Shown one piece after another: positions 3,059 to 60,000 of a DNA stretch of 64,000 nt. The notes beneath the pieces are model-generated. The model ran no database searches. It worked only from the letters and a program-made list of their open reading frames with translations, and had not been told where the DNA came from. Position 1 is the first letter of the stretch. Each line of letters begins with the position of its first letter. Source of the stretch: Aphrocallistes beatrix (Eukaryota; Porifera; Hexactinellida; Sceptrulophora; Aphrocallistidae); the NCBI GenBank assembly GCA_963281255.1, contig OY725489.1, positions 1,488,001 through 1,552,000 on the forward strand, read 5' to 3'. Both the position numbers and the translations under genes were made by a program.

Positions 3059-6000
3059 TTAGTTGGCTAACTCTCCAAATTCATGAAGCTGAGAATTCAT
3101 CTGAGCAGCCATATTTTTTACAGCAATATTATCCATTAGATCATCTTCTGTTAACTCTTGAAAGGAAAATGGATCATATTTAGAAACTTCGAGATGCTGT
3201 AAAATTGCTTCCCTTTCGTATGTTTTGCCATGTTTAGTCAAGACTGGATCATGAAAAATTCTTTTAGTTAAAGGACACATAAGATGTGCATATTTGCTCA
3301 TAACTCCGGTTGAATGATCTTGCACTATTTTAGCTAGAATATCTGGTCTTAAATGCTTATTCGCCATTTCTTCAGTATAATCTTGCGCATTTTGGAAATA
3401 GAGATCTGGGTTATCATGATGTTCAATAGCTTTCACGCTATCTAGTGGGTCTGAATCATCTGGACACATAAGTAGCCCGAATAACTGATCGAAAATGTCC
3501 TTGACTCTGACTCCTTTAGTATACGATCTATCAATTATTGAATGGCATATTCTGCCAGCACTATTAATATTGCAATGATATATGGGAGTTACGAAGCGAA
3601 TGTGAGGAGGTAAATCAGGGTAGTCCTTAGTGAATTCTATGTAGAGGTGAAAAACTCCTTGACTGTAAGGGGTTTCTTCAGGACTGTTTATCAAAATATG
3701 CCAAAAAGCAATATCTTTTTCCATAGGAAATACTTCAAAGTAGGGATGCGGATTTTTTTGATAATGTGCTAACTCCTGGAATATCCTCTTAGTCGCCCCC
3801 TTATGAGGTCTCTGACCCAATTGTTTTTGCATGAAAGCTTGAGCAAGATAGAGCTCTGGTAGTATAGCCTTTTCTTTCAGTTTGTCAGGAACTATATGTT
3901 CTGGTTTGATATCAAATCCTACTTTTAACTTTTTCAAATTTATTGATTCGCATTTTTCAGCTGAAATTTTGGGCTTTTTGTTTTTTCTTATTGCCATTGT
4001 TAACATGGGTTCTTGTTCAAAGATTTGCATTATTTCTTTTGAAGACTTGGGTTGGAAGGAATAGCCACCTGATGCTTTAGCAATGAAGTGACTGAATACC
4101 TTTTCTCTACAGAGTAATACTGTATCCATGATGATATTATTTTTAATTAATAGCTCAACAACTTCATTTGGTTGTACTCGAGATCTATTATCTTCTCCAT
4201 CGGTTAAGCAGAGAATTCTTCTATTCGCAGATTTTGCAAGAGGATTCCTGACTTTAAATGTATTCAGCGAGTTAATTGCATAATATATTGCATCGTAGAT
4301 AGAAGTTCTCCCTTCTGCTTCAAAATTAGTGAATTGTTCAACAAATTCATAAAAATTCTCAGATAAAGGGAACTTTAGTTTAGGACTATGTCGAATATAT
4401 GTTAATCCAATAACATGCTTGAAATTATAAGCACTTGAACGATCTGAGAAAGCACTAAAGGCTTCAATAACTGAGGTGAATTTTGATTTGTCATCGAAAT
4501 AATCTTCCAGCATTGAACCACTTGTATCAAGTAAAACCATTATGATTTCTTCAGGTTCTCTAGTTAAAACCTTTACTAACTCTTGTTTTTTAGCTGAAGC
4601 AGTTGGCTCAGGAATCATACAAGGCGGAGGAGCACCTCTTATCTTCATATCCAATTCATCAGCATAAGTGCTACCTGTTAGCCCTTCTACAAGATTTAGA
4701 AATATTATTTGGTTATTGAGCTTGTTTCTTGCTCGAAAAACTCCAATCCTATCATTGGCTAATGGTATCATGATATTTAGCGCGCATCGTCGGCTCTTTA
4801 ATTCTAAAGGATAGAAAACCATTAGTGGAAAATACTTTTGGACAACTTCTCTCAATTTACCCCAGTGAGGAGTCAAATCCTCAGTATACGAAGGTAAATC
4901 AACATCTTTCCAGACCAGGCAAGTTAAAGTATTAAAAGATGTGGTCATTCTCTTATAATTAGATAATATGGTAACAATTTTTTCATTTGTTTCCATCACG
5001 CTTGACCTATCAACTATGTGTTTTACATTATCTGGGTCTGTTATCTGAACTGGATCGTTCATCTTTTTGTTTGTAATTGAACAAACTAAATCAAATTCAT
5101 CAAATGTTTCCGTTTTCGAGTGAAACTCCTTCGATTCTATGATAAAAAATGCCCAAAACAAGTTTGAATATTCTGTTGCTAAAATTTCATTAAACGTTCT
5201 CTGTGCTCTTTGTTTTGAAACTTTGGGTTTCATCACTTCAAAAAGTTTGAACAAGACCTCTGTGATAGCGACTGTATGGGGGAGAGTGATGGCTTCATTC
5301 GAAAAAACTATGTTTAATGAGTGTATCAATGGAGGACAACCTGAGAGACTCCGTATATGTCCAAGAACATTGAAATGCATTCGTTCTTTTTGTTCCGGTA
5401 AGTTCATCCAGTTCGAAATCGAGAAAATACAACTATAAAATAAGCTAATGCCATACTTTCCTTGATAATTGCTCCAAGTTGGTTCGTAGAGATTATGGTT
5501 AAAGTTGTTCTCAATATCCAGTGTCCAAAATTCATCTTGTACAATCAGCTCTAACTCGTCTTCATGTTTTATGCCTAGATGGCATAACTCTATGTCATTC
5601 ATCGCGTATAGAGGATCTCCTTCATTTTTTAAGTGGAAAAGGTGCAATGGGATTCCGGTTATATTTTGAATTTCACTCAACAATTCGAAATAAGATGTCT
5701 TAGTGCAGTCTGTTTGAAATGTGATTTCAAAATTTGTATTATTTTCTTTCAGAGTTATGAGGTCATTTCCTCTTTCCAACTGTTTTATTGTATTAACCCT
5801 ACGCTGGTAATCTGAAAAGATTTTCCATCTAGGGATGGCGTATATAAATGGTTTCTCAAGCTTGTCTAGACGCCATTCTGTGAGTTTTTTGATGTAACTA
5901 ATAGGTTTGCAGGCTAGCGGGTACCCTTCAATTGAATACAATTCGATAGTTAGATCTCCTCCCAATTCTCCTTGTTCTATCTGACATATCGTGTTGATCA

Positions 6001-6112
6001 AATCACAATAATGTAATCTTGTTGAATCTAATGGAGGAGTGCACCTTTCAGGTGGATTAAGAGTAGTAAACAGTTTATAGTGAATTTCTAACTTCTTTTT
6101 ATCATATTGACC
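3059..6112 (-). CDS. VWA / E2 ubiquitin-conjugating / U-box fusion protein, 3' exon
   Basis: This is an open frame of more than 1010 codons. Counting from the TTG at 6001 as residue 1: residues about 80-155 look like a ubiquitin-like beta-grasp fold. Residues about 303-345 resemble a U-box start (MNDPV). Residues about 485-660 are a von Willebrand A domain with MIDAS DTSGSM (492-497), Thr566 and Asp601 in LTDGED. Residues about 735-895 are an E2 (UBC) fold with candidate catalytic Cys819 in GRICHS. Residues about 903-975 are a U-box (MCPLTKRIFHDPV). Family knowledge says E2 carries ubiquitin as a thioester and U-boxes bind E2s, so the protein may act as an E2-E3 in one chain. The canonical HPN motif reads HCN (809-811). 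The TTG is not a credible start: the frame runs on upstream without a stop to a good acceptor (TTTTACAG, exon from 6112), so earlier exons are missing. Stop TAA is at 3059-3061. I see no AATAAA on this strand in the next 180 bases. Confidence 0.85.
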   Translation of the reverse strand, partial: GQYDKKKLEIHYKLFTTLNPPERCTPPLDSTRLHYCDLINTICQIEQGELGGDLTIELYSIEGYPLACKPISYIKKLTEWRLDKLEKPFIYAIPRWKIFSDYQRRVNTIKQLERGNDLITLKENNTNFEITFQTDCTKTSYFELLSEIQNITGIPLHLFHLKNEGDPLYAMNDIELCHLGIKHEDELELIVQDEFWTLDIENNFNHNLYEPTWSNYQGKYGISLFYSCIFSISNWMNLPEQKERMHFNVLGHIRSLSGCPPLIHSLNIVFSNEAITLPHTVAITEVLFKLFEVMKPKVSKQRAQRTFNEILATEYSNLFWAFFIIESKEFHSKTETFDEFDLVCSITNKKMNDPVQITDPDNVKHIVDRSSVMETNEKIVTILSNYKRMTTSFNTLTCLVWKDVDLPSYTEDLTPHWGKLREVVQKYFPLMVFYPLELKSRRCALNIMIPLANDRIGVFRARNKLNNQIIFLNLVEGLTGSTYADELDMKIRGAPPPCMIPEPTASAKKQELVKVLTREPEEIIMVLLDTSGSMLEDYFDDKSKFTSVIEAFSAFSDRSSAYNFKHVIGLTYIRHSPKLKFPLSENFYEFVEQFTNFEAEGRTSIYDAIYYAINSLNTFKVRNPLAKSANRRILCLTDGEDNRSRVQPNEVVELLIKNNIIMDTVLLCREKVFSHFIAKASGGYSFQPKSSKEIMQIFEQEPMLTMAIRKNKKPKISAEKCESINLKKLKVGFDIKPEHIVPDKLKEKAILPELYLAQAFMQKQLGQRPHKGATKRIFQELAHYQKNPHPYFEVFPMEKDIAFWHILINSPEETPYSQGVFHLYIEFTKDYPDLPPHIRFVTPIYHCNINSAGRICHSIIDRSYTKGVRVKDIFDQLFGLLMCPDDSDPLDSVKAIEHHDNPDLYFQNAQDYTEEMANKHLRPDILAKIVQDHSTGVMSKYAHLMCPLTKRIFHDPVLTKHGKTYEREAILQHLEVSKYDPFSFQELTEDDLMDNIAVKNMAAQMNSQLHEFGELAN

Positions 6113-7090
6113 CTGTAAAAGATTTGATTACACTATATATATTACAATCATATCATAATCTTCCTATTTTTGTAATAAAATCTATTCTTGCCTAATACCA
6201 AGGAATTATCTAGGAGCGCGAGACGCTCCTTTAGGCGTATGATTTTAAGCTGCAAAGTGTTTAGGAGCGTAGAAATCCAGAAAAATACCCAATTTACCCA
6301 ATATTATAATGTCATTTAGCGATTTAGGCGTATGAAAATTTAGAAATTTTAGATTAGGTGCATATCTCTGGAAGGCTGTATAATACCCTACCTAATACAT
6401 ATATCATTTACTCATATTAGATCAAATATTTATTGTCATACATATGCACAAATGTTTTGATGAAGAATAGTTTAAAATATGCTCTACATAATCTGCGCCA
6501 GGTAGGGATTTTCGCAAAGTAGGAATTCCTTATTTTCGCAGAAAATTTGGAATAATATTCATACATTAAATACGCTCATCCACATGCGAAAGCAGATGAT
6601 AACTAAAAAAGTATTTCTATTTTTGTGGTATTCTACAAAGTGTTCACTGATCTCTTTTCGCACCGAGGAAATAACTGTAAATGTAAAAATTAAATATACA
6701 GGTTCTAATCCTGCAAATCACCAATCTCATTACTTATCTACAATCTGAATTTTCTGTAACAAAATACACATAATCATAGCTTGAAACTGGTGTTATAAAA
6801 TGACATTGGTGGTATTCTGCGCAAATAAACGTTGTATTAAGTGGTTATTAATGAGGTTCGACTGTTGGAGAGCTGAAGTAATAGTAAAAACAAAATATCT
6901 ACAACCTCAGCTAACATTAGTCTTTGAGATTTTACTTATATCTTTAAACAAAACTGGTGTTAAAATATGAATATATACTTATAAACACCGGAAATGATGA
7001 GATTTTGCTAAAAGAGAGATCCTACATGTGAAATTTGGTAAAAATCGGACTGTTAGAATTCGCAGTAGCGGGTGTACGGACATACATACA
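6113..7090. other. probable intron / upstream DNA of the VWA-E2-U-box gene
   Basis: The sequence just upstream of 6112 (minus sense) is a pyrimidine-containing intron end closing in TTTTACAG. The rest is AT-rich without a supported coding exon; the missing 5' exons must be short or lie further up. Around 6205-6360 a loosely repeated 'gcgatttaggcgtatg'-like phrase occurs twice. Confidence 0.45.
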
Positions 7091-8589: not shown

Positions 8590-9190
8590 CAAAATGTCAG
8601 TACCTAGGATCTGTGCTGCTAAGAATATTTCTAAGTCAGTACCCCAAGATCCTAATCAGTCCATCAAGCTTATTTTGAGATATTCTTCTATTGTGTTGCA
8701 ACGCGCTTCGGTAGCAAATCATTTCGAGCGTTACAATACTTCGAGCATGTTTCTCTATATTCTCCTTTCATTTTTTGTATTAAGAGCCCTCTTAATTGTT
8801 GGTGATAGCTATCTGTCCCTGCAATTACGTAAGACAGTGATCTAAATAGGCCATTGCCATCTGGTGAGATTCTGTTCTCTCTAGAAGGTATTAGCTGTCG
8901 AATTTCCAGGGATTTTTCAATAGCTTCGTTCTTATACAAAACACCCTTTGTATACGTCATTTGCAGAAATTTGCGTTTTTCTTTCTGCCAGCTTTGTGTT
9001 ACTGGCTTGAAATTTCCGTGATAAAAAATGTAATCCCTTCAACGGAGATAGGTTCGTCATCAAGGCTATCATCATAATGCATTGCTCCATTTTTTCCATT
9101 CATCTTTTCACCTATGACAGTACTTTTAAAAGATAGTTGGGTACTGACTATGTCTTGCCACATGTCATTGTTAAACCTGGATTTTGACAT
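8590..9190 (-). pseudogene. broken OTU-family cysteine protease gene
   Basis: On the minus strand, motifs appear in the expected order for an OTU deubiquitinase. There is an N-terminal leader (VTQSWQKEK near 8985-9010), then YTKGVLYKNEAIEKSLEIRQL, then the catalytic motif region ISPDGNGLFRSLSY (about 8850-8895), and then WGTDLEIFLAAQ with an IYVY-like strand (about 8590-8660). The family motif is DGNC-F/L-R, so the nucleophilic Cys is Gly here. The frame is interrupted near 9005 and again after about 8688 by a stop. A second OTU piece lies at 40225-40557 in a transposon setting, so this may be transposon-borne rather than a host gene. It is non-functional as read. Confidence 0.7.
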
Positions 9191-11879: not shown

Positions 11880-14800
11880 TGCTGCTAACTTCACACCCAT
11901 CCATTGAAAGCAGATGATAGGATAGCGGATTGGCAACCCCTATTTACGACTGCAACTAGTGCCCTAGCGGCTCAGGCAGGTCAGAAGGCTGTGGTGCAGA
12001 TTCTTCCTTCTTATGTCTGTAGAGATGAATTCGAAAGAGACACGACATTATTAGCGATACAGGAAGAGACAATCGAGGCAGCGTTCAAGATTTTGTGCAA
12101 TACACTGGACCCGCCGATAGACGAATTCGAATCCACCGCACTGGTATGTAGCATGGTCTGGGGCAGAGGAACGCGAGTGGAAGTATTCTTTACTCTACTG
12201 TGGAGGGAAGCCAAGCGGGCAGGGTTTACCAATAGACAGGTCTGCGTGATACTGACAACGCAACTGCCTAACAGGGTTCAGCTAGGAGTAAAGAAATGGA
12301 TCAAGGAACGGGAAGATAACCCGGTGACAGACGCACAGATGCGTGAATTTATAGCTGCAGTGCAACAGAGTCTTCGACAATCCGATATCGCGTTAGACTA
12401 TGGGAAAAGAGAAAGAGAAGAGAAGGCTACGGGCCACTGCAAGGTTATCGATCAAGACTCTCCCGGTGACCCTGGGTCAAGCGGTTCCGACTCTGAGAGA
12501 AAGAAGCTCAGAGTATACAAGGTCAGACAAGCAGGTTCCAAGGAGCATCATCGCTCTGGACCGAGAGAATCCCTGCGCAGGTACGACGACATGTCCTGCT
12601 ACACGTGCGGGAAAAGGGGGAATGGTTATCGGAGTTGCCCGGACCGCATATGCTGGAAGTGCCATGGAAAGGGGCATGACGCGACCAATTGCCGGATTGG
12701 GGTGCATGTGACAACGCGAAGTAACAAGGCGAAAAGGCGTGACTATGTAAATAGAATTGGCGGGTGCGATGAAAAGTCCGTGTCTATTGCAGTTAAAATT
12801 CGAGGCAAGCCGTGTTACGCGCTGTTGGATACAGGAGCTAAGGTGAATGTCATGGATACCCAGACTATGGATGACTTAAAACTAAGGGGATACTTAGAGC
12901 CGGAGGATAGTCTCATATATGGAGTATCGGGTACTCCTATATCAGTGGTCGGGAAGATCGAACTGCCCATCGAGGTACCGGGAGAAGAGGTTCGTCGGAC
13001 AAAGATTCACGTTTAGTGGGGGAGGGCCAATCGCTTTTGTTGGGACGGCAGTTCCTCAAACTCTTCACACGAGTGACCTTTGATTGGAGTAATAGAAGCA
13101 TCACGCTAGGTAGAGCCAGGATCGATATTGAAGATGAAGTAGTCGGAGGGAACCCGATAGATAGGGCCCGTTCAGTTAAGCTGATTAGTGATCAAGAGGA
13201 GGAACTGGTGGGGGCTCAGGATACGGATCTTACGCGTGACCAGCGAGTGGAGTTTGCGACACTACTCAAGGAATTCGATGCCGTATTTAATGACAAACCA
13301 GGACGCACTGCAGAATGCGAACATAGGATAGACACAGGAGCGCAGCTCCAGTCAGGAGCAGGGCAGCACGGATACCGCCACGTTGGGAGGAAGAAATTAA
13401 TAGGCAGCTTGATGAAATGCTGGAGCAGGGGTTGTGTCAGGCTTCCATCTCTCCGTGGGCCAGTAACGTGGTTTTAGTAATGAAGAAAGACGGGCGCCAA
13501 CGTTTCGCAATAGATTATCGGCGTCTGAATAGCGTCACAAAGAAGGATGCGTATGGGACACCCCAAATACAGGCAATACTAGACCGGCTACACGGATTCA
13601 GCTACTTTTCAGTAATCGATATATCCGCTGCCTATTGGGGTGTTCCGGTTAGAGAGGAAGACGTAGAAAAAACTGCGTTCAATACGCCAAGAGGGCTATT
13701 TGAGATGAAAGTAATGCCATTCGGCCTAGTGAATGCTCAAGCCACTTTCCAGCGGCTAATGGATACTGTACTCCGGGGTCTCAATAACACAGAGTCCTAC
13801 ATCGACGACTGTGTTATATATTCGTGCAGCTTTAAGCAACACATGGCAAACCTACGGGCTGTGTTCGAGCGCCTACGGGCGGCAAACCTTCACGTCAAGA
13901 TCAAGAAATGCCAATTTTGTCGCAGGAGAGTGGAATTCTTGGGACACGAAATATCAGAAGAAGGAAGGAAACCCCTAGCATCGGCGGCGGCAAAGTTAGC
14001 AAAATTCCCCAGACCCAAAACAGTAGCTGAATTGCAGCGATTTCTGGGTAGCATCAATTTCTACCGCGCGTACATTCCCAACATGGCACAATTGGCAGCT
14101 CCGTTATACGAGCTCACAAGAAAGGGAGCTAGATGGGTTTGGTCCAGCCTACGCGAAGAGGCGTTTGACTCATTGCGGAATAAACTTGTTCGAGAGCCAA
14201 TTTCACTAGCTTTCCCAAATTGGAAGAAAAGTTTCGTCATTGAGGCAGATGCAAGTTCGCGGGCCGTAGGCGCGGTATTGTCTCAGAGGAATGAGGCCAC
14301 CGGGCAGTTGCACCCAATCGAATTCTTTTCGTCCTCGCTTAACAAAGCACAGGAGAATTATTGCGCAGGACAATTAGAGGCGTGGGCCTTGGTTGCGGCG
14401 TGTCGAAAGTGGAGCACTTACCTGAGGGCGACAGCTGAGATAGAGTTAATTACTGACCACTGTCCACTAAAGTGGCTGCGCAACCAAAGGGACCCACGCA
14501 GAACCTTTGCGCGATGGATCTTGGAATTGGAGGAGTATACGTACCACATTGTACACCGCCCAGGCAGGGAGAATCACTTACCAGATTATTTAAGCAGAGT
14601 GCCCGACTTAGCTTTTGACACAGAAGTACAAGATGACAGTACATTCGAAGATAAAGTCTTTACAGTGAGACATACAGGTGAAAATATCCAATTAGAGGTA
14701 AATTTAAGCCAAGAGCAGAGAGAGATCCTGTGATTAGGGATGCACTGGGACAGCTGAAGAGGACCGGCAGGGTTCATTCGGGTCAGCTCCGCAGGGTTGC

Positions 14801-16327
14801 AGAGCAGCTAGAAGTGAAGGGAGGGATACTCTGCTTCCATAACCGCGTTGTGGTCCCGAAGAAGGCCAGGGGTGAAGTGTTGAAGAAGGTTCACGCCGCA
14901 GGCCATTTCGGCCAGAAAAGAACGTTAGGCAATCTAAAACGCAGCTACTTCTGGTTGGGGATGACGCAGGAGGTACGGTTCTTCTGCCAAAGGGCTAAAC
15001 CTTCAAACCAGCCTAGAGTACCGCTACAGGAATTCAGTACTGAAGGAATAGGGCCAGGGGACCTGGTGGCGATGGATGTCGCAACCCTGCCGTGGGCCGA
15101 CGAGCAGTTTCGGCATTTCCTATGTATTGTAGACGTTTTTACAAGGTACATTGAACTTACGCCCTTGCGAGATCAGAAGGCAGCCTCACTAGTGCACGAA
15201 TTCGAACGCGGGTGGGTTTTTCGGGGGCATGGGGTGCCCAAGGGTCTGCTGACAGACCAGGCTCATAACATCGACGGCGTAGAAGTCAGAAATCTGTGCA
15301 AGAGATTGGGAATTGAAAAACGGCACTCCTCCCCTTATCACCCCCAAGCGGATGGGTTGGTTGAAAGATGCATAGGGCTGGTCAAGCAGGTGGCCAGATG
15401 CTTAACGCTAGATTGCAGGCTGCCCAAGGAATCTTGGCCCGATATTCTTCCAGAAGTTGCCTTTTACTGCAACAACGCCCAAAACGCGTCAACGAAGTTT
15501 TCAGCGCAACTGCTAATGACTGGTAGACAGCCCACTTCGCCGATAGATGCCAGCATGGGCACCAGGCAGTGGTCAGAATTACCCAGCCAGGATCAGCACG
15601 TGGAACGTTTGAGGGAAATTAAAGTGGAGTTGGAGGCGTTGGCGCGGGAAAATGACGGACAGTGTAAGGCTAAGAGGGATGAGATACGCAACGAAGGAAC
15701 GAGGCTCCCGGCTATCAAGAAGGGTAAGTGGGTAATGGAGAGAAACGAGTTCCGAAAGGATTCGCTAGACCCGAAGTTCGAGGGACCGTACCTTGTTTTG
15801 GACTTTAGAAACGCCAGCATCAAGATTCAGAGGAAGAACAAGGGCATATGGGTACACGCTAGTCGGTGCAAGAAATACGATGCCAGCGGAGGTGTCGTAG
15901 TAACCACTGCCCCTATTCAAGGGGAAACAGATGAGATGGAGTACTCAGAAGGGGAAGAGCACGGAGCAGAAATTGTGGGTTTAGAGGCTCCAGACGATGA
16001 GCTCATACCGAGTCAAACGGAGACAGACAAACGAACAAGAGGAGGACCTGGTGAGCGAAAGAAGATATCCATTGCGCATTCGGAAGGCCAAAAGTTACGA
16101 TGATTATGTACTCAGCTTGGGGGAGTACTCAGAATCAATTGAGTCGGACTCGTATTCATTTTAGGGGGAGTGATGTAGCGATCACTCGCTTTATTACATA
16201 ACCACTTAGTATTATAGGTCAATTACTACGACGATCTATACTTAGAATTGTAGCATAGGACTTATAGTTTAGCTTCACTTATTTGTATTTCTCTATATTA
16301 CAAGTTAGTGTGTGCCTTGACGTAACA
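11880..16327 (+). mobile_element. Ty3-type LTR retroelement fossil, nearly whole
   Basis: Parts in order: gag-like region (about 11.90-12.58 kb), CCHC zinc knuckles (about 12.59-12.71 kb), aspartic protease with LDTGA (about 12.78-13.0 kb), reverse transcriptase (about 13.4-13.95 kb), RNase H (about 14.2-14.6 kb), then integrase with zinc-binding and DDE core parts (about 14.75-16.1 kb). The order protease-RT-RH-IN places it with Ty3/mdg4. A purine tract (about 16163-16170) precedes a candidate 3' LTR. No matching left LTR was found; the 185-bp array abuts the coding part. Long open stretches suggest a fairly young copy with about two to four breaks. Its base composition is clearly more GC-rich than its surroundings. 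Confidence 0.9.
16174..16327 (+). repeat. candidate 3' LTR of the Ty3-type fossil
   Basis: It follows the purine tract, starts TGTAGCG and ends CGTAACA, so it has the usual TG...CA borders and is about 154 bases long. It is uncertain because no second LTR is present for comparison. Confidence 0.5.
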
Positions 16328-32900: not shown

Positions 32901-34779
32901 GTGCAACTCTGCGCTATCGCGAAGTGCCTTCGGAATGGACGAATTCGAGAATTTCCTGTTGCAATACTTTGGGGACGACGAGCCTCTCTTTAAAAAATAA
33001 CAACCCGTCTCTTAGTCTCAGCCTATTCGACACCTTCCTAAACTTCCCTTGGGTTACCTGTCCCGTCGCCCTTAACTGTATTTTAGCTTCTCGTATTACC
33101 GGATCTTCACTCTGGCCATAAGCAATCTGCGCTCCGAGCTGGTTGGGGAGCTCAACCACATACAAATGTTCCTCAAATGTATGTTCCTGATTTACCTCGT
33201 CGTCTTAAACCAGGTGGCGATTACGGCTAAAATAGTCTGCTGTAATATTGTCCCGTCCGGGCCGATATTTGATCACACATGGTAGTTCCTCTAATTCTCA
33301 AATCCACCTGGCATACGTATGTCTGGGGTCCTTCTGAGCTCGCAGCCATTGTAATGGATGGTGATCTGAGAGAAAAACTTCCTCGATGCCGATACCAGTG
33401 CCCATGCTTCTAATTGCATAGCTCCATAATTCCATTGGGTCGAGTTGAGAGATGAAGAAAAATAGGAAATTGGTCGGAGTTTGTTAGTACGTTTGTCCAA
33501 CTGAGACAAAGCTGCTGCGATTCGTTGAGAACTTCCATCAGCTTCGACATAAAATTCCTTTCCCCAGTTTGGAAATGTCAAGCATACAGGCTCGGTGATT
33601 AATGCCTTACGTAAACTGGAGAACGCTCCCTCTTGACAAGCACTCCATTCCCAAGCTGCTCCCTTGTGCGTCAATAGATTTAAGGAGGCCGCTCTTTCTG
33701 CTAGTTGGGGGATGTAATCTCTATAATAATTCAAAGTCCCTAAGAATCGTTGTAGCTCTGAAACTGACTCCGGCCGAGGAAAGTTCTTTAGTTTTCCTTT
33801 ATATGACTCTATTGGCTCCCTGCCCTTATTCAAGATATGATGGCCCAAGAACTCTCCTTCCGATTACCCTATATGACATTTCGATTTTTTTCAGTTGAAT
33901 TCCTGCCTTTTCTAAGGCCTGGAAAGCCTGTCGCAAATTTTGAGTGTGCTCTTCGAAAGTCCTCAAGTAGATAAGAATATCGTCGATGTAGCTCTCGCAT
34001 CGGTCTACACGTTCGAGTGTTTGATCCATCAACCTTTGAAACGTCGCCCCGGAGTTTATCATCCCGAATGGCATCACTAGCATCTCGAATTTCCCCCTTG
34101 GGGTGTGAAAGGCAGTTTTCTCAATATCGGTCTCTCGCATCGGAACGCACCAGTAAGCTGATGTGACGTCTAAAAATGTAAAATAATTACTCCCGTCTAG
34201 TTTATCCAATATCGTCAGGGGGTTGGGGAGTTCATATGTGTCTCTCTTAGTAATCGCGAAGTTTTCTATAATCGATAGCGAATCTTAATGTGCCATCCTT
34301 TTTACGCACGAGTACGACGTCACTTGCAAATTGCGAGCTTGAAAGACGATAAATTCCGTTTTTGCACATCTCTTCTGCCTGTTCTGCTACTGTCTTCTCC
34401 CATGCCAGTGGCATCCTCTTTGAACGCACTTGAATTGGTGTCAACGCTTATACAGGTAATGTTGTATTTCCGTTATAATTATCTTTGGTTTCTTAGGATA
34501 TTTGGCAAACAGATCTGTAAATTCCTTTAATTGTCTGGTTCTCGCTCGGGGGTTGATCAATTCCTTCTCTTTCGTAGCTTCACCTAGTTCTAATACTTTT
34601 CATCGGCGATCCTGGTTCTGGATAAGCCATTGGAGCCGCTTAGCATCGTCTGGGCTGGCTGCCAATCGTTACCCAGGCGAATTCGGCCTCCCTTCCAATC
34701 CAAGGTGACTGTGTCGAACCTTTCCATGAACTGTCAACCCAACAAGAGTGTACGTTCCTCACTGTCCAATACGCGTAAC

Positions 34780-35845: not shown

Positions 35846-37436
35846 GCGTAACCTTTGTGTCACGGGTCTCTCGTTACCAACCTGTACAAGCGTATCTACG
35901 TTCCCGAGTACTTAAACGGGATAACTACATAGTCTCTACACCTCACTAGGTGCACGTAACAATTCGCTTCCTAACTTGAGTTCTGCTAACGTATAACGAT
36001 CGATAACGCAAGGTTTGGCGCCAGTGTCTAACATAGCAGTGACATTATTAGTGACCATCTACCTGCAAGTTTACTGTCTCTTCATTCGAGTTAACGAGAA
36101 AGGCGTCTTCACCCTTGAAATTTCTGTCGTTTCTGTCGTACCTGTGTCTTGGGTATTTACTGATCCAATGGCCATTATTCCCACAATTTCCGAAAGGACG
36201 CTTGGGACAATACTTCCACCCGTGCTCAAACTTACCACAGGTGAAACAGCGCGTGTTCTGGGACATTTGTCCAGGTCTTGTCTTTCTAGGGAATCTATCA
36301 TCGTCTGTACTAGTCTTTCTATGGAATCTATCGCACTGATGGAACGTGTTTACTTTCGCTGGGTCTTTCGTTAATTCTGCAGTACCGCTCCCTTCACTCT
36401 CTGAGTTTGAGGTTTTGACTCTTATTACTCTCTCTGGTCCGGGATCACGGTAGCCCCGATCCATTGAAATCCCTTTCTTGGTGAACCACTCACGTACAGT
36501 GTTTCCCTCAGGATAATTGGAAAGCGCGTTAATTTTGCAAAGTTTTGTGCGGTTTATTCGGTAAATTGCATTATTTAACAACAAAATCACGTTATTCGAC
36601 AAGCTAACGTGCTAAATAGCGCGCTTAATGCGCTCGACGGGAAACACTGCTCACGTTGCTTAACAGCAAATTGTGTTCTTTGTCCGTCTCCCATATCTTC
36701 TGACTTTTCAGCTAACCACTCCTTTGCTTTCTGGTATACTTCTTTTGGAAGTTGTGTAGTCATGAAAACTCAAGCGAATTCAACGTTCAACTCGAGGTCA
36801 TACATCAGAATCTGTTTGCAGCTTCAAATAGATCAATCGAAGGATCGAGACTTTCCTTCAGTACCTTAAATACCGCATCTAGTGTGATTTTCCTGATCAC
36901 GGTCAACACAACTCTATCTTCTAGTTTGCCTCTGTTGATATAGGCCGGCAGTAACCGTATGCTGCGGGTTCTTCTAAGGCAGAAACACTGGCTCGAAACT
37001 TCCCATTCTTCAATCCTTTGGGTAGGTAAGGGGATGGGATTGCGACTGTAAGAGGATTAGCCATCAGTAAGGTATAATGTATAATTTAGTATTTATGTTA
37101 TGATTTCGTCGTCTATTTATAACTATATCTGGAATGTTGAAGTGAAAGTGAAAGTTAATTGAAAGTAAACTGGTCATTTCTATTTATACCTTTGACCACA
37201 AGTATTTCCCGGGTTTTAATTAATTAACCAGTTATTTTCCTAGGAAAGATAGACCTTAAAAATTTATTTCCAAAAAATTTATTACCAGAAAAATTTATTA
37301 CCAGCATATATAAACCACATATCAGAGCCCCCGAATCCGTAATCAAAATGTGCATTGTCATCATCATTTTGAGCCACGAACCCTTTTTTGAGGAAATTTA
37401 GGCATTTTTCTCACCTGTTTTATACCGTTATAAATA

Positions 37437-43168: not shown

Positions 43169-44611
43169 ATGAAGACGTTTCAAACAATTTTGTTGAAGAT
43201 CAAGGCTAAATTTGATAAACACCTTCACAACATAGTTGTATTGGGGTTTGCCTTTCACTTTATTTTCGTTGATTTCGCCACCACACAATCCCTCTCAGTT
43301 TCTGCATTGAAAACTTCCACACGAATTCCACTCAAGCACAAAACATCTTAATTCAAAACATCGGGTACTACGCATTACTATTCCTGTATGCATTCTTCAC
43401 AGTTTCAAATGTCATTGCACCTTCAGTGATAAGACTGATCGGTTCAAAGACTTCCCTATTTATAGCCGCGATCACGTACGTTGCATTCGCGGCTGCCTAC
43501 ATATACCTCCTGGTGTACACTCTCTACATCACGGCCGCTTTAATCGGCATAGGAGCGGCACTCTTATGGACAGCGGAGGGTCAGATACTGCTGGAGAATT
43601 CAGATGAAAGAACTATTGACAGAAATAGTGGTATATTCTTAGCATTCATGACTTCGAATTTCGTTATTGGCAATTTGTTCGTTTTCTTATACTTAGGAGA
43701 TTCTGTGGACATCACTGCTTTTGATCGCTACATAATTTTCTCAGTCCTCAGTTTCATTGGAATGATCGGCGTCCTTTTAATTCTATTAATTCTTCCAAAT
43801 AAACAGACCGACTCGGGATAAGAAGATAAGAAAATAAGGAATTTAAAGTCGATAATAGTGGAATTCTTGAAAGGCCTTCTAGATGTGTTACGTTTGTTTC
43901 TACGTGTCAAAACGTGGTTACTGATACCGATGTTTTACAGTTAGCGGACTGATGCTAAATCTCTACGCCGGGGGAGTGTATGCTACCTGTTTCGGCAACA
44001 TATTGGCTCCTGGATTTAGAGTGCGTTACGCAGCTCTTTCTTTACTCTTGTCCGGGGTTGGGGGGATGTTTGGGAGTATTTGTTTTGCAATTAACGGTCG
44101 CTTGTCTAAGCGACTCACTCAAAAAACTATATTTCTACTAGTTGTGATAGTGTGCTCAATTGCAATTATTCTGATTTACTACCTCGCAATTGTAACTTCC
44201 CATAGACACCTCACAACGCTCTGTTAACTGATGGGACACTGATAAAACCTTCCAATCTCATCCTTGCACTGTCTTGCTCTGTCCTTTTAGGGGTCGCAGA
44301 TTCGAATTGTAAGTCTCTAATTTATTCAATAATAGCTTCTACTTATGTGAAGTCAATGAGTGCTGCTATAATGGGTGTCTACAAATTGTTTGAATCTATC
44401 GCGTTAATGCTCGGATTCTTTTACAATCCATTATTGAATCTGTATTGGCAACTTTTGATTGTGGAGATAATGATGACACTCTCATTCATTGGATTTGTGT
44501 CGAGCTGTTAACGGGAATGACCAGGAAAAAGAATGCACTGGAGGACTCTCAGATTCAATTACAAGCGATGCCGCAAGAAGATATCGCTAAATTTATAATA
44601 TCGTATTCTTA
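43169..44611 (+). pseudogene. UNC-93-like major facilitator superfamily transporter, decayed
   Basis: Pieces in order encode hydrophobic helices typical of the UNC-93 family. NIGYYALLFLYAFFTVSN (about 43360) is followed by SVIRLIGSKTSLFI, then ALIGIGAALLWTAEGQILLE (43532-43591; the A-x-LWTxQG-like motif of the family). Next comes a second half with VGGMFGSICFAINGRLSKR (about 44059) and VADSNCKSLIYSI (about 44292). Family members are membrane proteins of about 450 residues with some 11-12 helices; several regulate potassium channels or traffic receptors. The frame shifts near 43310, meets a stop at 43819 and shifts again near 43938 and about 44215. These look like decay, not introns, since the pieces join without splice sites. 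A first methionine at 43169 is plausible. Confidence 0.75.
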
Positions 44612-49690: not shown

Positions 49691-51045
49691 ATGTTAGCTC
49701 TCAACTGTTTCTATACATATAAGGATGCGCCACGTAGCAAAGGGGCAATGGGGAGGCGGGATGGACCTACAAGGAAGTATCCAGCAAGCCAATTTCCTAA
49801 GAAGGGTCGGTGCTTTATTTGCGACTCGGACAGGCACTTTATGGCCCAATGCCCGGAACGGCACTGTGCGAAATGTGGCGAAAGAGGACACGAGGTCCGC
49901 TATTGCCCACATACACAGTCGAAGAGGGGTATTTCAGGCCACGACGCAGCATGGTGTTGTACATGAGACGGCCGTTGTGGTACCAGTTAAATGGAACGGC
50001 AAACCCATCAATGTAATGATGGACACAGGGGCGGATCCTTCGGTGGTGGACAGAGGCACCGTACAAAAGATGAATATCCCTTACAGCACAAAGTACAGTC
50101 AAGTGTATGGGCTAGGGCGGACAGCGCTTGCGGTCTGTGGTACTGCCTGCGTGGCGATAGATGTGGGGGATGGTCGACCACTAGAACACGAAATCGAAGT
50201 ACTCGATACTAACAATAGGGTGGTTATATTGGGGCGAAGGTTCCGATTGGGAAAACATGAGAGTTAGGCTAGGTGGTTGTTGGAAAACCTCTTTAGCTGC
50301 GGCACGCGGGGGATACACGGCGACTAGAGCAGAAATTATGCAGACTGAGATGGGAAAGGAGGGAGATAGCTTGGAGGCCAGGTTCGATATAAACCCGAAA
50401 CTATCACCGCGAGAAGAGACAGCCATACGCAAGGTGCTGTCGAGATGGAAAGACGTTTTCGCGGAGAACCCGAAGAGCCCGCGCGAAATTGGAACCGCGG
50501 AACACGTTATCACTCTTCTGGATGAGCGGCCGATCAGAATCCGGCCGTTGCGTGTTTCTCCGGAAATTGAAGCGGAGGTATCCAAGCAGATAGATGAAAT
50601 GCTCGAGAATGGGATCATACGTCCCTCTTCTTCCTCTTGGGCGAGTCGGGTGATCTTAGTGAAGAAAAAGGACGGGACTCATCGATTTGCCGTAGATTAC
50701 CGGGATCTCAACGATGTGACGAAGCGAGATGCCTATCCGATGCCGGATCCCCGAGATGTTTTCGATCGTATGGGAGGGGCAACTGTATTCTCTACACTGG
50801 ATGGAGCATCCGCATACTGGAGCATGCCTGTGAAGGAAAAGCATAGGGAGTTCACTGCGTTTGTTTCAACGCGCGGCCAGTTTGAATTCAACCGCATGCC
50901 TTTTGGATTGTCAAACTCACAGGCTACCTATCAGCGAGCGGTAGACCAGGCTCTATGAGGGTGTCCGAATGTACAGGCATTTGTTGATGACACATGTGTC
51001 CGCTCGCCCAGTTTCGATACGCACCTGGAGCATTTGGATGATGCT
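49691..51045 (+). mobile_element. Ty3-type LTR retroelement fossil, partial
   Basis: Parts: CCHC zinc knuckles (about 49.83-49.91 kb), aspartic protease (about 49.95-50.25 kb) and the first half of reverse transcriptase (about 50.5-51.04 kb). RNase H, integrase and LTRs are absent. About two or three breaks. GC-rich compared with its surroundings. It is a different lineage from the fossils at 11.9 and 32.9 kb. Confidence 0.85.
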
Positions 51046-56514: not shown

Positions 56515-56896
56515 TAATGTTATGGCTGCAGCTAAAGTTGTAAACTTGGAAACACTCATTAAGCATGACATTATGCCAGAATCTAGTTCTCGTGTGCTTG
56601 ATTGCGACAAAAACTGTACTACTTCCGAAAATCCAGCTGAGCGAAGTGAACTGATTGACGAGATCACTCCTCAAGACACTCAATAACTCTTGAGGTCTTA
56701 AGCATAAAGATGTTTATTTGGCCAGATACCTTGTTTATAAATATGGTGAAGATGGTAACGAGGTGTCATCTGAGTTCCTAGATAATTTGAATAGAGGTGG
56801 ACTGAGTGTGTCGACTATGTCAACCGTCTGTTTTGTACACAATGCCTATAATTTGCATGACCAGGCTAAAATGCGTTGCCGCTTTCAGTTTTGCTG
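56515..56896 (+). CDS. possible transposase C-terminal piece, cut by the gap
   Basis: Two frames follow one another: MAAAKVVNLETLIKHDIM... to a stop near 56686, then LARYLVYKYGEDGNEVSSEF, then LDNLNRGGLSVSTMSTVCFV up to the gap. The 'YLVYKY ... LNRGGL' layout recalls the C-terminal part of P/THAP9-like transposases (AG-W-KY ... NRGGL-P). It is weak, and the rest lies in the gap. Confidence 0.3.
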
Positions 56897-57096
56897 NNNN
56901 NNNNNNNNNNNNNNNNNNNNNNNNNNNNNNNNNNNNNNNNNNNNNNNNNNNNNNNNNNNNNNNNNNNNNNNNNNNNNNNNNNNNNNNNNNNNNNNNNNNN
57001 NNNNNNNNNNNNNNNNNNNNNNNNNNNNNNNNNNNNNNNNNNNNNNNNNNNNNNNNNNNNNNNNNNNNNNNNNNNNNNNNNNNNNNNNNNNNNNNN
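56897..57096. other. assembly gap of exactly 200 N
   Basis: Placeholder size. The sequence right of the gap is the duplicate of 33860 onward, starting in the middle of a Ty3-type fossil. Confidence 0.99.
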
Positions 57097-60000
57097 CCGA
57101 TTACCCTATATGACATTTCGATTTTTTTCAGTTGAATTCCTGCCTTTTCTAAGGCCTGGAAAGCCTGTCGCAAATTTTGAGTGTGCTCTTCGAAAGTCCT
57201 CAAGTAGATAAGAATATCGTCGATGTAGCTCTCGCATCGGTCTACACGTTCGAGTGTTTGATCCATCAACCTTTGAAACGTCGCCCCGGAGTTTATCATC
57301 CCGAATGGCATCACTAGCATCTCGAATTTCCCCCTTGGGGTGTGAAAGGCAGTTTTCTCAATATCGGTCTCTCGCATCGGAACGCACCAGTAAGCTGATG
57401 TGACGTCTAAAAATGTAAAATAATTACTCCCGTCTAGTTTATCCAATATCGTCAGGGGGTTGGGGAGTTCATATGTGTCTCTCTTAGTAATCGCGAAGTT
57501 TTCTATAATCGATAGCGAATCTTAATGTGCCATCCTTTTTACGCACGAGTACGACGTCACTTGCAAATTGCGAGCTTGAAAGACGATAAATTCCGTTTTT
57601 GCACATCTCTTCTGCCTGTTCTGCTACTGTCTTCTCCCATGCCAGTGGCATCCTCTTTGAACGCACTTGAATTGGTGTCAACGCTTATACAGGTAATGTT
57701 GTATTTCCGTTATAATTATCTTTGGTTTCTTAGGATATTTGGCAAACAGATCTGTAAATTCCTTTAATTGTCTGGTTCTCGCTCGGGGGTTGATCAATTC
57801 CTTCTCTTTCGTAGCTTCACCTAGTTCTAATACTTTTCATCGGCGATCCTGGTTCTGGATAAGCCATTGGAGCCGCTTAGCATCGTCTGGGCTGGCTGCC
57901 AATCGTTACCCAGGCGAATTCGGCCTCCCTTCCAATCCAAGGTGACTGTGTCGAACCTTTCCATGAACTGTCAACCCAACAAGAGTGTACGTTCCTCACT
58001 GTCCAATACGCGTAACCATAGCCTACTCTAATAATGCCTCACAGTAAAATAACCAAGGATGCGGTAATAGCCGAATGGATTAATACACGATTAGCCTAAA
58101 GTCGTCAACCATGTAGGATAGGCATTAAGAATGTATTACCAGCATATATAAACATGGCATCAAATAACATATATCCGTTGTCAAAATTTCGACTCGTCAT
58201 CATATCATTGCGCAACAGGTCATTTTAAGCACGATTTTGGCAATTTTCTAAGCTGTTTTAACCCTATTTCTAAATGATATTAAGGTGTGATTTTTGTGTA
58301 GAACCAAGATTAGTACGAGTTGATTTGAAAAATTTGGAATTTTTCAATGGAATGTTGCTACATTCCTGCGTTGCTATGGTAAAGCATTTTGGTCAGTTTG
58401 GGCCATATCCTGCAAACTGTAAGAACTAGGTCTTCAAATTTGATTTTATTTGATAGGCAATTGGCTACTTCCTATTAGTTAATAATACAATTTAAACTTC
58501 TAAATTCACAGACTATAGAGTTATGAGACAATTTAGTGTTTTGGTCACATTCTTAAAACAACCCATAACTCAAAACTCGTTGAATTTAAAAGTTCAAGTT
58601 GTATTAACACCTAATAGGAAGTAGGCCATTGCCTATCAAACACGATCGAATTTGAAGATCTAGCTACTACAGTTTGCACGAAATGGCCCAAACTGACCAA
58701 AATGCTTTACCATAGCAACGCAGGAATGTAACAACATTCCATTGAAAATTTCTAAATTTTTCAAATCAACTCGTACTAATCTTGGTTCTACACAAAAATC
58801 ACACCTTAATACCGTTTAGAAATAGGGCTAAAACAGCTTATAAAATCGCTAAAATTGTCCTTAGAATGACCTGTTGCGCAATGATATGATGACTAATCGA
58901 AATTTTTCCAACGGATATATGTACTTTGATACCATGTTTATATATGCTGGTGATACATTCTTAATGCCTATTCTGCATGGTTAACGATTTCAGGCTAATC
59001 GTGTATTAATCCATTCGGCTACTACTTCATCCCTAGTCCATGATTTTCAGTCTACTGTGAGGCATTATTAGAGTAGGCTATGGCGTAACCTTTGTGTCAC
59101 GGGTCTCTCGTTACCAACCTGTACAAGCGTATCTACGTTCCCGAGTACTTAAACGGGATAACTACATAGTCTCTACACCTCACTAGGTGCACGTAACAAT
59201 TCGCTTCCTAACTTGAGTTCTGCTAACGTATAACGATCGATAACGCAAGGTTTGGCGCCAGTGTCTAACATAGCAGTGACATTATTAGTGACCATCTACC
59301 TGCAAGTTTACTGTCTCTTCATTCGAGTTAACGAGAAAGGCGTCTTCACCCTTGAAATTTCTGTCGTTTCTGTCGTACCTGTGTCTTGGGTATTTACTGA
59401 TCCAATGGCCATTATTCCCACAATTTCCGAAAGGACGCTTGGGACAATACTTCCACCCGTGCTCAAACTTACCACAGGTGAAACAGCGCGTGTTCTGGGA
59501 CATTTGTCCAGGTCTTGTCTTTCTAGGGAATCTATCATCGTCTGTACTAGTCTTTCTATGGAATCTATCGCACTGATGGAACGTGTTTACTTTCGCTGGG
59601 TCTTTCGTTAATTCTGCAGTACCGCTCCCTTCACTCTCTGAGTTTGAGGTTTTGACTCTTATTACTCTCTCTGGTCCGGGATCACGGTAGCCCCGATCCA
59701 TTGAAATCCCTTTCTTGGTGAACCACTCACGTACAGTGTTTCCCTCAGGATAATTGGAAAGCGCGTTAATTTTGCAAAGTTTTGTGCGGTTTATTCGGTA
59801 AATTGCATTATTTAACAACAAAATCACGTTATTCGACAAGCTAACGTGCTAAATAGCGCGCTTAATGCGCTCGACGGGAAACACTGCTCACGTTGCTTAA
59901 CAGCAAATTGTGTTCTTTGTCCGTCTCCCATATCTTCTGACTTTTCAGCTAACCACTCCTTTGCTTTCTGGTATACTTCTTTTGGAAGTTGTGTAGTCAT

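Follow-up and report, generated by a model that had tools for sequence, protein, structure and literature searches.

A clustered sponge gene family joining ubiquitin-like, von Willebrand factor A, E2 and U-box domains: a putative E2/E3 hybrid ubiquitin ligase of Aphrocallistes beatrix

The large exon and its domains

The stretch analyzed here (the window) comprises 64,000 nucleotides of the glass sponge Aphrocallistes beatrix (contig OY725489.1; C2:1488001-1552000 of the genome) and carries on its minus strand a large coding exon that joins a von Willebrand factor A (VWA) domain, a ubiquitin-conjugating (E2, UBC) domain and a C-terminal U-box in one frame (Table 1). This frame is open from position 6127 down to a TAA stop at 3059-3061, with 1,022 codons ahead of the stop; counted from 6112, the exon comprises 1,017 residues plus the stop. 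We refer to the window protein as P0001 and use its residue numbers (Pfam numbering is that of P0001 minus 5). A candidate in-phase acceptor, TTTTACAG, lies at 6113-6120 with its AG at 6113-6114. The earliest in-frame methionine is residue 176, and at least one upstream exon is therefore required.

Table 1. Features of the large exon (positions in the window; residues of P0001)
Feature	Position	Strand	Residues	Basis
Large coding exon, putative E2/E3 hybrid gene	3059..6112	minus	6-1022 + stop	
C-terminal U-box	3098..3298	minus	944-1010	Pfam
E2 (UBC) domain	3359..3802	minus	776-923	UBE2D/E-like fold
Asp893	3449..3451	minus	893	alignment to UBE2D
Candidate active-site Cys861	3545..3547	minus	861	alignment to UBE2D
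H851-C852-N853 (HCN where E2s have HPN)	3569..3577	minus	851-853	family-wide feature
VWA domain	3989..4558	minus	524-713	best solved match of TFIIH subunit p44/Ssl1 type
MIDAS Asp643	4199..4201	minus	643	residue check
MIDAS Thr608	4304..4306	minus	608	residue check
MIDAS motif DTSGS	4514..4528	minus	D534-S538	
Central degenerate U-box-like stretch	4913..5116	minus	338-405	hhalign to C-terminal U-box
Helical region	5108..5485	minus	215-340	secondary structure of model
Ubiquitin-like domain	5528..5776	minus	118-200	hhalign to ubiquitin
N-terminal region	5813..6100	minus	10-105	strand-strand-helix-strand in model, beta-grasp-like order

The first-pass annotation, made from the letters of the sequence, had claimed one chain with a ubiquitin-like region, a VWA domain, a UBC domain and a U-box, and had proposed a profile search as check. 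This search recovered both enzymatic modules. Besides zinc-finger look-alikes, Pfam found solely VWA_2 (8.3e-11, 42.9 bits, cut-off 27), UQ_con (1.5e-31, 109.4 bits, cut-off 27) and U-box (5.5e-14, 52.5 bits, cut-off 21.4) on the exon. The VWA domain of the window copy has the full set of metal ion-dependent adhesion site (MIDAS) residues (D534, S536, S538, T608 and D643), and in the alignment to UBE2D all of N853, C861 and D893 are kept, the last of which pairs with Asp117 of UBE2D. The U-box sequence has, by eye, no RING-type spacing of Cys and His. Judged by sequence, the exon thus combines a UBC fold with its Cys and Asn, a U-box, and a VWA domain with its MIDAS, and profile matches, key residues and the structural model all support a single chain that unites the E2 and the U-box with an intact VWA domain. 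Splicing of the E2 and the U-box into separate products is unlikely, because the two domains lie within a single uninterrupted exon and also occur together in P0027, a relative derived from a transcript (its name reads 'TRINITY ... ORF type:complete').

In the N-terminal half, the ubiquitin-like region claimed earlier holds for residues 118-200, where 74 columns of the family sub-alignment align with ubiquitin (hhalign probability 88.7, E 2.9e-7). This part of the window copy gave no Pfam match in the exon scan, and in relatives it reaches Pfam PF00240. For residues 10-105, profile comparison with ubiquitin gave no match, and strand order alone does not prove a ubiquitin-like identity; the first 199 residues folded in isolation gave an unusable model (predicted local distance difference test score, pLDDT, 34). 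The earlier domain list is extended by the central stretch 338-405, which on its sequence reads as a degenerate second U-box: it aligns with the C-terminal U-box (hhalign 81.7, E 1.3e-6) and yields a weak U-box match in the window copy itself (independent E-value, iE, 0.018).

Relatives in other organisms and copies in the sponge genome

Three protein searches together with the query gave a family set of 167 proteins (166 retrieved), in which the rows of one search are the best 120 of 360, drawn from 7,987 scored candidates; a profile search using the full alignment returned 14 rows. Among the matches listed, VWA, E2 and U-box are found together in further sponges, in acorn worms and a brittle star, and in lampreys and many fishes; sources given by name include the glass sponge Oopsacas minuta (the closest named relative), Oscarella, Saccoglossus, Glandiceps and Amphiura, besides the lampreys and fishes. 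The search in other proteomes suggested by the first-pass annotation therefore found the architecture from sponges to fishes, and the idea that this domain order was unknown in animals does not stand: one fish protein, from Merluccius polli, even bears the name 'putative bifunctional E2/E3 enzyme R795'. R795 is a mimivirus gene. Most other names among the matches listed are 'uncharacterized' or 'hypothetical protein'. Two Paramecium proteins combine ubiquitin-like, VWA and E2 parts without a U-box.

Conservation within the family is high. The E2 motif is present in 161/167 proteins and a U-box lies C-terminal to the E2 in 154/167 (query counted), while the active Cys is kept in 162, the Asn in 165, Asp893 in 161, the Cys of HCN in 165 and the MIDAS Asp in 165. 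Two of the five proteins without the active Cys (P0010 and P0014) are same-species copies. In total, the 166 retrieved proteins include seven that cannot count as independent because they match frames of this very genome: P0007, P0010, P0011, P0014, P0034 and P0078 are 99.9-100 percent identical to such frames, and P0002, considered as an ortholog at 77 percent, was rejected as such, being the same-species paralog C2a (99.9 percent). A chance or gene-model fusion of the domains was rejected because they co-occur in proteins of many genomes. A U-box-like match well upstream of the E2 is found in 49 of the 167 proteins (iE < 0.01), including P0038, where it corresponds to the N-terminal RING.

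Two fish members have further domains, namely this additional N-terminal RING in P0038 (Centropristis) and an additional OTU protease domain in P0129 (Gadus, cod), so that conjugating, ligating and ubiquitin-removing activities are all predicted in one cod model; these extra domains may be gene-model fusions.

In a FastTree phylogeny (58 sequences, 987 columns, Paramecium root), the window gene and C2a adjoin Oopsacas LOD99_14351 with a support of 0.97. The copies C11:323524 and C1:7376262 share a separate clade with short branches, in which C1:7376262 has Oopsacas LOD99_14356 as its sister. Support is low for several deep branches (0.27, 0.46, 0.83). Judged by titles and abstract openings, the open-licence PubMed Central (PMC) literature yielded no study on the family. 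The architecture is already in databases; what is new is its reach, the HCN signature and the pattern of a shared core with different ends in this genome.

In the genome we counted at least 28 U-box matches, 16 of them in C7:223-391 kb, and at least 99 E2 matches, 18 of them in the same interval, such counts being lower bounds for large families. Within the frames examined (C7:205-415 kb and seven further places), there are at least 18 family frames of at least 800 residues, of which 13 form the C7 cluster within 170 kb, accompanied by broken pieces; a 981-residue C6 frame matching the U-box alone is left out of the 18. The E2 Cys is kept in 15 of these long copies, replaced in two (Tyr at C7:281169, Gly at C7:352173), and in one the frame ends earlier. 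The MIDAS DxSxS is kept in 11 and lost in seven. Six cluster copies form a diverged group, C7b, with HPN and the E2 Cys and without the MIDAS DxSxS; a C-terminal U-box was seen in 4/6 of them. The sister copy C2a lies 33 kb from the window gene, and its large exon is likewise open.

The C7 cluster also contains a lone U-box frame (C7:355717-356058), which follows a full copy having its own U-box at a distance of about 450 bases and is possibly a spare cassette or a relic. Separate small SAM-like frames occur there as well (e.g., 329268-329525, 386375-386656 and 386936-387160), some of them directly upstream of big-exon copies. A second large E2 expansion, outside the window, comprises 27 E2 domain matches in about 145 kb at C1:11.80-11.95 Mb; the two of its frames that were read, one inside a 1,708-residue frame, resemble UBE2J by eye.

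Several known systems share part of this organization. The characterized animal E2/E3 hybrids BIRC6 and UBE2O carry an E2 inside a large, substrate-choosing protein. They resemble the window protein in having an E2 domain within a large protein and are not known to include a U-box or a VWA domain, both of which the window exon has. No BIR domain was found by Pfam in the exon (E up to 1) or in eight longer relatives (E up to 0.1). Plant RGLG ligases likewise join a VWA/copine domain to an E3 domain, which is a RING and not a U-box, and they are not known to carry an E2. The top Foldseek match among solved structures, the engineered UbcH5B-RING fusion 8v0d, has E2 and E3 in one chain, but is man-made, contains a RING instead of a U-box, lacks a VWA domain and places its domains differently. 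Proteins named R795 resemble the family, by name, in combining E2 and E3 in one chain. The Hokovirus HKV1 protein A0A1V0SEK3 is a candidate relative by fold: it matches the model over its full length (Foldseek E 8.1e-37 across 1,321 alignment columns), yet at 15 percent identity, TM-scores of 0.43/0.34 and a root mean square deviation (rmsd) of 22.6. Scans of viral contigs with three queries confirmed no relatives. A study on ubiquitin genes of giant viruses discusses viral U-box proteins and, in the excerpts available, names no such fusion (PMC11915834). The Mb_UBOXa gene of Monosiga and protists unites VWA and U-box in one protein and is reported as absent from animals; the available part of the text names no E2 (Marin, 2010; PMC3087547).

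Silent divergence and the proposed function

The window gene and C2a are under purifying selection (dN 0.142, dS 0.576, dN/dS 0.25, for nonsynonymous and synonymous divergence, respectively). Because, in addition, the U-box trails the E2 in 154/167 proteins, the union of both domains is more than chance. Positive selection is unsupported, since dN/dS stays below 1 in each segment of the C2 pair and the lone segment above 1 among 12 pairs (1.45, the U-box of C7:240231/C7:281169) rests on few changes.

Silent divergence is distributed in blocks. Scanned in 60-codon windows, the C2 pair has values of 0.00-0.21 as far as residue 335 or so, rises to 0.40-0.75 across the middle part, the VWA domain and the linker, drops to 0.00-0.05 in the E2 core (817-906) and climbs again to 0.52-0.56 over the U-box. 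In each of the four pairs examined, a variance as large as the one observed arose in 0 of 500 codon shuffles. The segments compared below were picked after this C2 profile, and the seven C7a and six C7b copies serve as a check, single pairs of both having been viewed beforehand. Over the E2 core (800-910), the mean silent divergence (pS) is 0.09 in the C2 pair, 0.19 among the C7a copies (21 pairs, 0.08-0.30) and 0.19 among the C7b copies (15 pairs, 0.10-0.30). The corresponding means for C2, C7a and C7b are 0.60, 0.61 and 0.65 in the second half of the VWA domain, 0.59, 0.58 and 0.45 in the U-box, and 0.11, 0.16 and 0.40 in the N-terminal part (30-160). Fourfold sites follow suit, with differences at 1/34, 58/610 and 59/551 sites in the E2 core, 15/25, 200/506 and 146/246 in the second VWA half, and 3/39, 41/925 and 81/354 in the N-terminus.

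The simplest account of these data is gene conversion within groups, acting most consistently on the E2 core and leaving VWA and U-box different in most pairs. Low values are not limited to the E2 core. Segment 161-330 is also low in C2 (0.10) and C7b (0.25), segment 331-515 is lowish in C7b (0.34), the N-terminus of C7a has a lower pS than its E2 core, and some C7a and C7b pairs are near-identical in VWA or U-box (lowest pair values 0.00 for the C7a second VWA half, 0.05 for the C7a U-box and 0.09 for the C7b U-box). Selection on silent sites, acting through overlapping RNA or codon use without any conversion, could also keep the E2 core low in all three groups as observed. We reject such a constraint as highly improbable, because between groups the same core is near saturation (pS 0.87 for C2/C7a, 0.74 for C2/C7b and 0.71 for C7a/C7b; fourfold divergence 0.52-0.66), and its sites are hence free to change. 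A hypervariable MIDAS face was considered and dropped; it is not claimed here because linkers and the ubiquitin-like part are variable as well as the VWA loops.

In this study, we propose, with a probability of roughly 0.7, that the product of the exon is an E2/E3 hybrid ubiquitin ligase. The computed basis consists of the domain matches, catalytic and MIDAS residues that are all intact, evidence of purifying selection, family conservation and the block-wise silent divergence. In the proposed mechanism, E1 would load ubiquitin onto Cys861 of the UBE2D-like E2 domain, and the C-terminal U-box, acting in cis within its own molecule or in trans on a neighboring one, would promote transfer. The MIDAS-bearing VWA domain may bind a target or partner and thereby choose the substrate, whereas the N-terminal ubiquitin-like domains, together with SAM in relatives, may gather molecules. 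From these elements we infer that the protein would be an active enzyme working in cis or in trans, that its VWA domain would choose the substrate, and that it may have a defense or self/non-self role. The observation of the first-pass annotation, one chain with these domains, is confirmed, and its interpretation as a self-contained ligase with a substrate-selecting VWA domain is partly supported.

Several points weigh against a working hybrid ligase. The E2 reads HCN and not HPN, although HPN variants occur among active E2s. Ser-Tyr-Thr-Lys-Gly replaces the Gln-Trp-Ser-Pro-Ala loop that serves as E3 contact in UBE2D. The rmsd to 8v0d is 15.8 over both domains, and this match leaves docking of the U-box onto its own E2 unsupported at the level of the model. 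Finally, neither a start exon nor a SAM-like frame of the window copy was found in the window, where frames of at least 25 residues were searched for SAM at E up to 1. This last absence, the retroelement frames upstream from 11.9 kb on and the broken state of some cluster copies would suit a duplicate in decay that has no functional first exon. We consider such a fate of the window copy unlikely, given that the exon is fully open with intact catalytic residues and a dN/dS of 0.25, and that C2a, too, has retained its open large exon.

What a hybrid ligase of this kind would serve for can be read in several ways. The family may tentatively be seen as a defense or self/non-self array, in which each copy combines its own VWA recognizer with a shared ubiquitin engine and diversity arises by duplication and gene conversion. 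Consistent with such a repertoire are the presence of 18 long copies (13 in C7:223-391 kb) along with broken ones, the alike E2 core next to divergent VWA and U-box in three separate groups, the replacement of the E2 Cys in two full-length copies, the loss of the MIDAS DxSxS in 7/18 copies and the full-length fold relative in a giant virus. The immune-defense table of a study on infection in eels includes a transcript labeled 'probable bifunctional e2 e3 enzyme r795' with a ratio of 0.18, near CXCL10 (0.23) and CXCL11 (0.17), in the part of the paper available (PMC5560681). The support from the eel is weak, because this ratio is below 1 and a label is no proof of family membership. Further arguments against a repertoire are the dN/dS of the C2 pair, which is less than 1, and the VWA loops, which are overall not the most variable parts. 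Alternatively, a constitutive hybrid for quality control, expanded via drift, is conceivable, if short of probable. The persistence of the slow-evolving copies C1:7376262, with its Oopsacas sister, and C11:323524, which groups with other proteins, speaks for such a housekeeping ligase, as do the supported lamprey-fish and acorn-worm clades, several deeper branches being weak. By itself, however, housekeeping would not lead one to expect that an alike E2 core recurs beside diverged VWA and U-box parts, or that some tandem copies have their catalytic Cys replaced.

The recognition array can be taken one step further, albeit speculatively and with some doubt. Clustered, self-contained recognition ligases might exist in an early animal, conversion keeping the E2 core common to each paralog group while the VWA and U-box ends differ, which would amount to a constant-plus-variable intracellular recognition of pathogens or self/non-self tied to ubiquitination. 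As the enzyme core tends to be common to the cluster copies and the putative recognizer tends to vary, early-animal intracellular recognition becomes testable. A natural E2-E3 fusion with a putative targeting domain would also allow testing how E2 and ligase work in cis, and it is a possible scaffold for compact targeted ubiquitination. The family spans ciliates and animals from sponges to fishes, yet is little studied.

Other frames in the window

A 116-residue frame at 8688-9038 (minus) with the motif DGNGLFRSL recalls an OTU domain, an identity that was rejected as it has no Pfam support. Ty3/gypsy-like retroelement frames were recognized by eye at 11889-16103 (plus), 33291-33863 (minus), 50185-50958 (plus) and 56820-57521 (minus). 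Two 187-residue zinc-knuckle frames at 36048-36611 and 59285-59848 (both minus), 23 kb apart, are identical by eye and likely represent a recent retroelement copy. A membrane-protein frame at 43273-43821 (plus) resembles UNC-93 by eye.
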